A stretch of DNA of 64,000 nucleotides from NCBI GenBank assembly GCA_947373185.1, contig CANBWP010000012.1:1-64000 (forward strand), in the 5' to 3' direction. Shown here piece by piece: positions 43,635-46,397 of this stretch; position 1 is the stretch's first letter, and every line of letters begins with the position of its first letter. The notes under the pieces are model-generated. The model did no database searches. It saw only the letters and a program-made list of their open reading frames with translations, and was not told where the DNA came from. Made by a program: the position numbers and the translations under genes. The stretch comes from Comamonadaceae bacterium (GTDB taxonomy: Bacteria > Pseudomonadota > Gammaproteobacteria > Burkholderiales > Burkholderiaceae_C).

Positions 43635-45218
43635 TTGAAGCTGACGTCTCCCAAATCCAAAGCACTGATCGCCTTACTGGCGACTTCCCTGTGGCTCACG
43701 CCCGTGTGGTCACAGTTGCCGCCAAGCTCACAAGGCCTGCCCTCTCTTGGCGATGGCGCTGATATCACCTTGAGCGCAGAGCGCAAGCTGGGCGATCGAA
43801 TTGCCCGAGAGCTCTACCGCGACCCGGATTACTTAGAAGATCCTGTCCTCGACGAGTACTTGCAAAATATTTGGCAGCCCTTGGTGAAGGGCGCTCAAGC
43901 GCGCGGGGAACTGACGCCCGAATTGCAAGAGCGCTTTGCTTGGAAAATTTTGATTGGTCGCGATCGTTCGGTCAATGCCTTTGCCTTGCCTGGCGGCTAT
44001 TTAGGCATTCATCTGGGATTGATCAGTGTCGTCAACACCCGCGATGAGCTGGCGTCCGTCATGGCGCACGAACTCAGTCACGTGACGCAAAGGCACATCT
44101 CTCGCTCCATGGGCGATCAAGCACGCATGACGCCTTGGCTCATTGGCGCCATGATCTTAGGCATGTTGGCGGCTGGTAAAAGCGCACAGGGCGCGCAAGC
44201 CATGATTGTGGGCGGCCAAGCGGTTGCCGCGCAATCTCAACTGAATTTTTCTAGGGACATGGAGCGAGAGGCTGATCGCATTGGCTACGGCGTGATGTCA
44301 GAAGCCGGCTTTGACACGCAAGGCTTCGTGACCATGTTTGGCAAACTGCAACAGGCTTCTGGGCTGAATGACAACGGTGGCTTTCCATATTTGCGAAGCC
44401 ACCCCTTGTCCACAGAACGCATGGCGGACATGCAGGCGCGCCAACAACTTCAGACCCCCAAGGCCAGCAACCTCGACAACGATTTGATACAAGCCATGAT
44501 GTCTTCCAGGGCCCGTGTGTTGGCGCAGCCAGGGGTTGATGCGTTGCGGGCTTGGGCCAACGAGGCTTCGGACAAGGGCGTTGAGCAACTGCCTGTTGCC
44601 AAGCGCATGGGCATCTTGTACGGCGCTTATCTTTCTTTCCTGCAATTGCGTGACTTTCAACCAGCGCGGGGTCTACTGTTGCGATTGAAAAAGACGGCTG
44701 GGGAACACCCGCCTGCCATGCGTTTGGTGCAATTGCTTGAGACCGAGTTGGCATTCAAAGAAGATGACATGCGTGGGGCCATCCAATCATTGAGCGCAGT
44801 GACCCGGCAAGCCCCTTCCAGTTGGCAGCGACCCGAAATGATCTTTTTGGCCCAAGCCAGTTCACGCCTCCAAGTAGCAGCACCGACACAAAACAATGCT
44901 GAGTTGCTTGCCAGTGCCACCTCCGCCTTGCAACGTCATGTCCTTCTCAACCCACAAGATGCGCAAGCCTGGCAGATATTGGCCACGGCACTCTCGGCGC
45001 AAGGACGCCCATTGGCCAGTTTGCGCGCAGAAGGCGAAGCGCAATTGGCTCGCATGGATGTTGGCGCTGCGGTTGATCGCTTGAGAGCGGCTCAAGATGC
45101 ATCTCGAAAAGGGACCGCTCAAATGAGTGATCACATTGAAGCGTCGATTGTGGATGCACGTTTGCGTTTTGCCCAAGGTTTGCTCAAAGAGCAAATGATG
45201 GAGCGGCCTGAACGCTAA
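43635..45218 (+). CDS. M48 family periplasmic metalloprotease (BepA-like)
   Basis: The 527-residue protein has a signal peptide (LIALLATSLWLTPVWS), an M48 zinc protease domain with H145-E-L-S-H149 and E212 in MEREADRIG, and a C-terminal TPR-like helical half. E. coli BepA helps LptD form correct disulphides and degrades stuck barrels; lptD and surA are in this window. The start appears to be TTG at 43635. The 3' end overlaps the convergent lipoprotein gene by 35 nt. Confidence 0.9.
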   Translation: MKLTSPKSKALIALLATSLWLTPVWSQLPPSSQGLPSLGDGADITLSAERKLGDRIARELYRDPDYLEDPVLDEYLQNIWQPLVKGAQARGELTPELQERFAWKILIGRDRSVNAFALPGGYLGIHLGLISVVNTRDELASVMAHELSHVTQRHISRSMGDQARMTPWLIGAMILGMLAAGKSAQGAQAMIVGGQAVAAQSQLNFSRDMEREADRIGYGVMSEAGFDTQGFVTMFGKLQQASGLNDNGGFPYLRSHPLSTERMADMQARQQLQTPKASNLDNDLIQAMMSSRARVLAQPGVDALRAWANEASDKGVEQLPVAKRMGILYGAYLSFLQLRDFQPARGLLLRLKKTAGEHPPAMRLVQLLETELAFKEDDMRGAIQSLSAVTRQAPSSWQRPEMIFLAQASSRLQVAAPTQNNAELLASATSALQRHVLLNPQDAQAWQILATALSAQGRPLASLRAEGEAQLARMDVGAAVDRLRAAQDASRKGTAQMSDHIEASIVDARLRFAQGLLKEQMMERPER

Positions 45219-45828
45219 GGGGCTGCACAGTGCTTCCCTCCGCATCACACTGCATCCAACCGCTGTTTGCTTTATGGCATGCCAAGACCCCATCCGGGAT
45301 AGCGCTAGGGTGACCGGCAAATTGCCAACCATGGCGTGTTTTTGCAAAACGGTAGTTGTCTCGAAAATTCACAGTGGGTTGGCCCTGCTGCGTGTAAAAA
45401 TAATCGGTTGTGAATTGAATGTCTGCTTCAGTCACTTGCCAATTTTTGAGGGTGCGGACATACAACGGCGTTTGCACGTCCAAGTTTTGAATGCGGCGGA
45501 TACTTCGAACTTCTGGCTCGGCAGAAGCTTGCATGTGCGATGCACTGGCAGTGGACAACAGTTGCTGCGTGAACGCTGCAATGGCTGGCATGGCATCACG
45601 AAGCGTTTGCAGCTGAGCGCCGTCTAAGTTCTCGTCTCGAAGTTTGAATGCTTTTTTGACAAAGAGATGCGGCGGCAATATTTTGAATGCAACCCCCGCC
45701 ACGACATCGACGTGCCCCTCGTCTACAAAAAATTCAGAGGCACACCCTGACAAAAATAGCGCCAGGAAGCCGACGACGACTTGCATGGTGATGCGTGCCA
45801 TGCTGAATGACAAACCTGAAGTCAACAT
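45184..45828 (-). CDS. Lipoprotein, possible partner or immunity protein of the PLA2-like gene
   Basis: The 214-residue protein has a lipoprotein signal peptide ending FLALFLSGC, with C29 to be lipidated. No known domain was recognised. The mature part has a charged helical N-half and a beta-rich C-half (TDYFYTQQGQPTVNFRDNYRFAK) with two cysteines. The ATG at 45828 is chosen because it lies 5 nt after the upstream stop, as in coupled genes; ATG 45801 would also give a valid lipobox. The gene ends inside the convergent M48 gene. Confidence 0.75.
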   Translation of the reverse strand: MLTSGLSFSMARITMQVVVGFLALFLSGCASEFFVDEGHVDVVAGVAFKILPPHLFVKKAFKLRDENLDGAQLQTLRDAMPAIAAFTQQLLSTASASHMQASAEPEVRSIRRIQNLDVQTPLYVRTLKNWQVTEADIQFTTDYFYTQQGQPTVNFRDNYRFAKTRHGWQFAGHPSAIPDGVLACHKANSGWMQCDAEGSTVQPLSVQAAPSFAL

Positions 45829-45833
45829 CACGC

Positions 45834-46238
45834 TCAACTGCCTATCATGCAGCTTTCGGATTGCGCCTTTTGATAAGCACTTTCGCCCAACAAGCTCACA
45901 CTCACGTAATAAATGCTGGAGATGGCGTGGCAAGTGATGGGGCCGCCTCCCTGTGAGGCACATTCACTCAAAATGTTGGTGGCGAGTTTGGTGTCTGCGG
46001 TGTCACGGTTAAAACCACACATTGAATAACTTTGATCGTGCTGAACGCACGCTTGTGAAATGTCAATGCCAAAGAGCATGTCCGGGACATAGGCATCGCT
46101 TTTGACGGTGCCACAGCCTGCGCCCAAAGCATTGCCATCTGCTCTGGCGCCATTGCTGGTGCCTGAGTCGAATTGAAAGAAACTCCAAAAGCCACCGCCA
46201 TGCACGTGGCTGGCCATTTCTGAATTGAAAGTTTGCAT
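45834..46238 (-). CDS. Phospholipase A2-like small protein with candidate double-glycine leader
   Basis: The 134-residue protein starts at ATG 46238 after an AAGGAA ribosome binding site. It has no Sec signal. It opens MQTFNSEMASHVHGGG, which looks like a GG-type leader cut by a peptidase ABC transporter. A PLA2-type core follows: DMLFGIDISQACVQHDQSYS (H67, D68, Y71), DTADTKLATNI and CHAISSIYYVSVSLLG. Six cysteines (42, 64, 74, 93, 103, 130) could form three disulphides. The fold resembles prokaryotic PLA2. A lipoprotein gene follows after 5 nt. Family call and leader are inferences. Confidence 0.72.
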   Translation of the reverse strand: MQTFNSEMASHVHGGGFWSFFQFDSGTSNGARADGNALGAGCGTVKSDAYVPDMLFGIDISQACVQHDQSYSMCGFNRDTADTKLATNILSECASQGGGPITCHAISSIYYVSVSLLGESAYQKAQSESCMIGS

Positions 46239-46397
46239 GATGAGTTCCTTGTGAAAATGAAAAAGGCTGAAACAAGAAATCAATGCTAGGCGCGCACGGC
46301 AATTTCAGGGCCTGCTTTGGCTTGCAATGACGCCGCACAAGGCCGGCCTGAAACCGTTAGAATTCGCATCCCTCTCTTCAAAGTAGCTTCTGTTTCA

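Follow-up and report, generated by a model that had tools for sequence, protein, structure and literature searches.

A two-gene unit at 45184..46238 of the window, meaning the whole 64,000-nucleotide stretch analysed here (positions 1 to 64,000 of contig CANBWP010000012.1, assembly GCA_947373185.1, Comamonadaceae bacterium), encodes a small phospholipase A2 (PLA2)-like protein that bears a double-glycine (GG) leader and, directly downstream, a Sec-exported lipoprotein. The genes, the leader, the pairing, an exporter encoded in the same genome and linkage of the pair to a C39 exporter gene in two relatives are direct observations. From these we infer, with a probability of roughly 0.55, that the PLA2 is cleaved and exported in the fashion of a microcin, that it is catalytically active on a cellular target and that its envelope partner confers immunity on the producer. 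The features of the unit are as follows.

45834..46238, minus strand: PLA2-like gene, 134 residues with an N-terminal GG leader (ORF, homologues, profile and fold matches)
46194..46238, minus strand: 15-residue GG leader MQTFNSEMASHVHGG (invariant GG in homologues; length shared with exporter-linked peptides)
45993..46040, minus strand: H67-D68-xx-Y71 to D82, predicted PLA2 active site and Ca2+ ligand (conservation, alignment with solved PLA2s)
46246..46250, minus strand: AAGGA, likely ribosome-binding site of the PLA2-like gene (read directly in the sequence)
45184..45828, minus strand: partner gene, Sec-exported lipoprotein of 214 residues, NTF2-like fold suggested (ORF, translation)
45742..45744, minus strand: lipobox cysteine Cys29 (LFLSGC), with Ala at +2 (read directly in the translation)

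Both open reading frames (ORFs) that the original prediction had described as a unit are present on the minus strand, separated by an intergenic gap of 5 nt (45829-45833). The first begins with ATG, has the N-terminus MQTFNSEMASHVHGGG and holds, in its 134 residues, all that had been described for it: the CxxHDxxY motif (H67, D68, Y71), DTAD at residues 79-82, the CHAISSIYYVSV segment and six cysteines (residues 42, 64, 74, 93, 103 and 130). The lipoprotein ORF has in-frame ATGs at 45828, 45801 and 45786, and because all three precede the lipobox its start is uncertain.

A homologue search found 46 proteins at E <= 0.01, the window protein counted among them. In an alignment of 41 of these 46 (A1), M1, G14, G15, C64, H67, Y71, C74, A81, D82, C93, C103 and C130 are invariant and D68 and C42 are conserved in at least 90% of rows; the number of homologues and these invariant positions argue that the ORF is not a chance one. 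C64, H67, D68, Y71 and D82 are likewise invariant in all 20 rows of a further alignment (A3). The window protein itself matches two Pfam PLA2 families below their cut-offs (PF09056, E 9.5e-4, 20.2 bits against 29.4; PF06951, E 9.2e-4, 19.6 bits against 34), and its matches to PLA2s in the PDB are also sub-threshold. Three relatives with GG leaders exceed the PF09056 cut-off (P0063, P0066 and P0067 at 52.3, 53.2 and 62.2 bits), as does the relative at locus L096. In alignments with solved PLA2s (1faz, 7ygk and 8k1w) the window protein shares the CxxHD helix, and D82 corresponds to the second Asp of 1faz; the residues of the H67-to-D82 stretch presumably have the roles of PLA2 active site and Ca2+ ligand. 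The resemblance to PLA2 that had been proposed is upheld by the fold comparison, in which the best matches of the predicted structure are PLA2s and the HD pair lies inside a predicted helix (residues 61-71), although the model is of low overall confidence. The segment ahead of this helix appears from the alignments to depart from prokaryotic PLA2s. Taken together, the sub-threshold Pfam and PDB matches, the PLA2s at the head of the fold matches and the relatives above the Pfam cut-off place the window protein in the PLA2 superfamily by motif and predicted fold, with catalysis putative.

The leader that had been noted in the sequence proved to be a constant feature of the family, with GG at residues 14-15 in 41/41 rows of A1. 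Among the 24 PLA2-positive genomes of the genus, 19 have a GG leader (18 of the clade described below and G072), four have GQG instead (G010, G028, G039 and G049) and one, G055, has a PLA2 from which the leader is absent. Leaders of the 18 clade PLA2s with GG were compared with those of 17 peptides encoded next to C39 exporters (three further GG peptides, the second peptide of L070 and those of L068 and L082, fall outside the comparison), and every one of the 35 has a length of 15 residues and GG at its end. In both sets the commonest residues are N, I and E at -11, -10 and -9 and Q at -3, with V or I at -4 throughout. The search pattern demanded GG and V, I or L at -4, so agreement at these positions is partly selected; it allowed GG to end anywhere from residue 12 to 20, leaving the length free.

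An exporter of the kind foreseen for such a leader, with a C39 peptidase, an HlyD-type adaptor and a TolC-family channel, is also encoded. The only Peptidase_C39 match in the window genome belongs to a 713-residue ABC exporter, encoded on another contig than the pair, and 12 stretches of the genome match OEP (TolC-family). Upstream of the ABC gene lie genes for an HlyD-type adaptor, a small CPBP/Rce1-like protein and a 68-residue GG peptide, MRSLNIEELPEVQGGG... The peptide (L002:8116-8319, plus strand, contig C15 of the same genome) belongs to no Pfam or NCBIfam family; the small protein, encoded between the HlyD-type and GG-peptide genes (L002:7575-8099, plus strand), has a faint CPBP/Rce1 match (E 0.012, under the cut-off) and is perhaps the immunity protein of the peptide. 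Within the clade the subtype LQLQ..ECGLACLCM of the exporter is present in 19 genomes with the PLA2 or, in G079, with the partner alone, and GG peptides occur at 17 of the 19 exporter loci of this subtype, with none at L052 and L056. Many exporter-linked GG peptides have a YN(P/A)MGD-type C-terminal part.

In two relatives, G055 and G072, the PLA2 and partner genes adjoin a C39 ABC gene. The pair of G055 occupies the same chromosomal site as in the clade, and the order there is PLA2, partner, HlyD gene, C39 ABC gene. The catalytic Cys of this exporter is replaced by Ala, whereas Cys is present in the other 29 of the 30 C39 loci read (of 50 matches), and G055 thus combines a leaderless PLA2 with an exporter that has no catalytic peptidase Cys. 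This combination matches what PMC8277102 describes, C39-like domains going with leaderless cargo. The G072 contig opens inside what appears by eye to be the end of an HlyD gene; after it come, in order, a PLA2 gene whose product has the leader MRVLENTQLGFISGG, the partner gene, an ORF of 141 residues and the C39 ABC gene. G012 has an exporter of the same subtype as G072, and there the interval from the HlyD-like gene to the ABC gene holds a 61-residue GG peptide (MKVLSIQELDEVQGGG..., L082:11700-11885, minus strand), a 166-residue membrane-type protein and two more genes; since the pair of G072 thus stands where G012 has genes for such a peptide and membrane-type protein, its position is bacteriocin-like. 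We infer that the PLA2-like protein is exported by a C39 system and consider this well supported and firmer than the other inferred steps, even with an exporter that is unlinked to the pair in the window genome.

The translation of the window partner shows a Sec signal with the lipobox LFLSGC, and inspection by eye of the 23 readable partners in the genus found a lipobox Cys in 14. Its family is kept downstream of and adjoining the PLA2 gene in 23 of the 24 PLA2-positive genomes (one a broken pair), so that the neighbourhood expected of the lipoprotein holds throughout except in G072, whose very divergent partner is only marginally similar. The broken pair is that of G028 (L025 / L083), in which both genes are damaged together, the PLA2 being cut near residue 105 and the partner lacking its start. 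No Pfam family matches the window partner at E <= 1, the single NCBIfam match is at chance level, and 30 members of the partner family gave weak, scattered Pfam matches only, the best at 0.031. The partners of G072 and of a second genus, g38, are related to one another (E 9e-17 to 2e-29), but their homology to the window partner was set aside as marginal once G072 was left out of the profile: the profile behind the earlier E-values of 6e-9 to 3e-6 already contained G072, and the G072-free profile gave at best 7e-4 among six sequences and 0.23 for G072 itself. Profile-profile comparison gave a probability of 50% in local and 79% in global mode. A search of the 90 genus genomes with the partner profile A2 returned no orphan partner; its 25 matches are the 24 PLA2-positive genomes, including G072 on whose own sequence the profile was trained, and G079, whose match begins at base 4 of its contig.

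Matches to the PLA2 were found in 24 of the 90 genus genomes, 13 of 399 in a sample of the family and 5 of 399 in a sample of the order (searched with profile A4), the window's own genome being counted in each; most record titles of relatives name Limnohabitans and Comamonadaceae or Burkholderiales metagenome-assembled genomes. The four order-sample loci from other genomes have no match to the partner profile, and one of them is RHS-like by eye; the family-sample loci read are those other than L092, L093 and L094. In the 23 positive genus genomes other than G072 the PLA2 gene adjoins up180/d186/purB, and an M48 protease gene where the locus extends. The interval at this site measures 1.1-1.6 kb in 20 PLA2-positive genomes, as against 49-446 bp in the ten PLA2-negative genomes with loci reaching both sides. 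A tree built from two neighbour proteins groups these 23 genomes in one clade (local support 0.99) with all 59 placed PLA2-negative genomes outside it; the tree omits 7 of the 66 negatives as well as G072, whose loci showed no neighbour genes. The pair thus looks like a syntenic trait of one lineage. A strong C39 match (E < 1e-29) is present in 20 of 24 PLA2-positive and 8 of 66 PLA2-negative genomes (Fisher p 4e-10), and one of the eight, G079, holds a partner at a contig edge. This co-occurrence was considered as genus-wide proof and set aside, since 23 of the positives form one clade.

Within this lineage the PLA2 and its partner diverge fast and in concert. Their mean distances are 0.33 and 0.53, compared with 0.05, 0.09 and 0.27 for three neighbours, and the PLA2-partner partial r is 0.83 against 0.40 for a control pair (19 of the 24 genomes, without G072, G028 and G065, which were not entered, and G055 and G087, which lack a neighbour; genome pairs are not independent). 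A calculation on 21 genomes with a single neighbour gives a partial r of 0.86.

Beyond the clade, PLA2-like domains are found in other settings. Five ORFs in four genomes encode RHS-type proteins that end in one:

L045:2059-6309, RHS-type ORF with PLA2-like end
L101:10464-12302, RHS-type ORF with PLA2-like end
L102:959-5398 and L102:11477-13414, two RHS-type ORFs with PLA2-like ends
L103:7841-9754, RHS-type ORF with PLA2-like end

At L045 Pfam finds the RHS part only and the PLA2-like end comes from tblastn (36% identity, E 8e-10), and at L103 the RHS matches are slightly below the cut-offs. Downstream of the L101 ORF is a gene for an ankyrin-repeat protein whose N-terminus is Sec-like, and downstream of that at L045 a small ORF that by eye is of membrane type. 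In five genomes of genus g38 the PLA2, whose likeliest ATG yields no GG leader, is followed by a G072-like partner; at four of the five g38 loci shown (L097-L100) the PLA2 gene is closely preceded by a small ORF whose product ends in LGWVVYDWxPGP. P0068 and P0069 have a leader and glycine linker almost letter-identical to those of the G072-type PLA2, with a different C-terminus that has no Pfam match, and within the genus P0068 matches nothing but the PLA2 gene of G072, the match spanning its first 61 residues. These two sequences hint that the leader and linker may act as a carrier with exchangeable cargo. P0063 and P0064 likewise have a common leader and glycine linker and differing C-termini, a pattern that is not seen for the window protein. 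Eleven plasmid records match P0063, all actinobacterial and several annotated as phospholipase. A viral home was considered and rejected, the one viral_contigs match being in a long frame that by eye is unlike a PLA2 gene.

The favoured model would run as follows. The PLA2-like enzyme would be made in the cytoplasm with its GG leader. A type I exporter consisting of ABC-C39, HlyD and a TolC-type channel would recognise this leader, remove it with its C39 peptidase and in a single step release the enzyme to the outside. It would fold and be oxidised there with pairing of its cysteines, which, being six, could form up to three disulfides. The enzyme would then hydrolyse phospholipids of neighbouring cells. 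The lipoprotein, at the periplasmic face of the envelope, would bind enzyme that re-enters, and in this way the partner probably protects the producer. Antagonism is favoured over feeding, action against grazers and self-directed remodelling because of the RHS relatives, the bacteriocin-like position of the pair in G072 and the fast co-divergence of the two proteins.

Several observations weigh against this model. The window protein misses both Pfam PLA2 cut-offs, and the resemblance of the partner to the NTF2-like fold is a weak match. In the window the C39 exporter does not adjoin the pair, and the PLA2 leaders do not have the L(-12), E(-8) and L(-7) of the exporter-linked peptides. Four genomes have GQG, yet the three with an exporter locus among these retain the C39 Cys; a strong C39 match is missing from four PLA2-positive genomes, G027 (97% completeness), G028, G065 and G087, and in g38, with its leaderless PLA2, only one of five genomes has a C39 match. 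Co-occurrence with the exporter is not independent evidence, given that 23 positives share one clade. The 65 other genus genomes hold no orphan partner, whereas orphan copies are typical of many immunity genes. Finally, an arms race sits uneasily with a pair that is a syntenic trait of one clade, and its clade-wide conservation favours a steady ecological role.

That last point is the strength of the best surviving alternative, possible but clearly less probable, in which the exported PLA2 would serve feeding or defence against eukaryotes, releasing fatty acids and lysolipids from algal, protist or detrital lipids, with a partner that guards only the cell's own envelope. The pair is a clade trait and not patchy (none of the 59 placed PLA2-negative genomes falls inside the clade), the relatives are by most record titles from Limnohabitans and Comamonadaceae or Burkholderiales assemblies, and the two Pfam families matched include group XII secretory PLA2; nevertheless, co-divergence with the partner, the RHS-end relatives and the bacteriocin-like position in G072 better suit antagonism. 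Rather unlikely is self-directed lipid remodelling, in which the PLA2 would act on its own envelope, in outer-membrane turnover or vesicle formation, with the lipoprotein as regulator or activator. Clade-wide conservation and the envelope location of the partner would fit, and a cell-associated bacterial PLA2 has a precedent in TtaP of Salmonella Typhi (PMC11525133), but a one-step export leader skips the periplasm, and the C39 exporter linkage and the joint absence of leader and Cys in G055 also speak against it. It is quite improbable that the protein is a catalytically dead signal or pheromone-like cargo with the PLA2 fold as its scaffold: the low scores against known PLA2s and the stretch before the HD helix, apparently unlike that of prokaryotic PLA2s, are consistent with this, whereas H67, D68, Y71 and D82 are invariant in 20/20 A3 rows and D68 is conserved in at least 90% of A1. 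A chance leader on an intracellular protein, the pair then being toxin-antitoxin-like or some other unit, would accommodate the GG-less members in G055 and g38 and the GQG members but is scarcely credible beside GG in 41/41 A1 rows, a 15-residue length equal to that of exporter-linked peptides, the exporter linkage and the Sec signal on the partner.

The individual parts of the exported PLA2 and its partner are of known kinds and the combination is new. With prokaryotic PLA2s (PF09056) the window protein shares the CxxHD helix, the second Asp and a helical core, and its GG-leader relatives pass the family cut-off, but it differs in its own sub-cut-off score, its GG leader and its dedicated partner gene. 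Such toxin domains were named Tox-PLA2 in a 2012 survey (Zhang et al. 2012, PMC3482391), in which the table row for Tox-PLA2 gives no immunity family and lists the type II secretion system (T2SS), with RHS and ALF repeats. A PLA2 fold as effector is common to both, and RHS-type proteins with PLA2-like ends are among the relatives, whereas the window protein stands alone with a microcin-type leader and a paired lipoprotein. The Imm65 immunity family, as described in the same survey, is likewise a lipoprotein encoded beside an effector gene, but one associated there with Tox-JAB-1. Class II microcins that rely on C39 type I secretion, such as microcin V (PMC10231218, PMC8277102), have cargo of <10 kDa according to PMC10231218; they share the GG leader, the C39 ABC exporter with HlyD and a neighbouring candidate immunity gene, but the window cargo is enzyme-like, exceeds that size class with 119 residues and 12.4 kDa after the GG, and is encoded apart from the C39 exporter. 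G055 resembles RTX type I secretion, with its C39-like domain (HlyB, PMC8277102), in having an exporter without the catalytic Cys and an adjacent leaderless PLA2, but its cargo is small and no RTX repeats were noticed by eye, no search having been aimed at them. Among the papers listed by an open-access literature search, judged by titles and abstract openings, no PLA2 with a double-glycine leader, no such lipoprotein and no such pair was found.

A broader class of "enzymatic microcins" may be tentatively proposed, at somewhat less than even odds, comprising PLA2 toxins delivered by GG leader and C39 exporter, each with a dedicated periplasmic or outer-membrane NTF2-like neutraliser, a leader-linker carrier that can be swapped onto other effector domains and, in at least one lineage, a leaderless form that uses a peptidase-dead exporter. 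If the model of microcin-like export is correct, C39 type I secretion of small cargo (<10 kDa in the size class given in PMC10231218) would also move a cysteine-rich lipase, perhaps as a weapon, and there would be a candidate immunity family for PLA2 toxins, where the Tox-PLA2 row of the 2012 table (PMC3482391) lists none. The joint absence of leader and peptidase Cys in G055 would offer a natural experiment on how an exporter chooses its cargo. Furthermore, a clade that includes freshwater Limnohabitans strains would possess a clade-wide system for antagonism or lipid attack.

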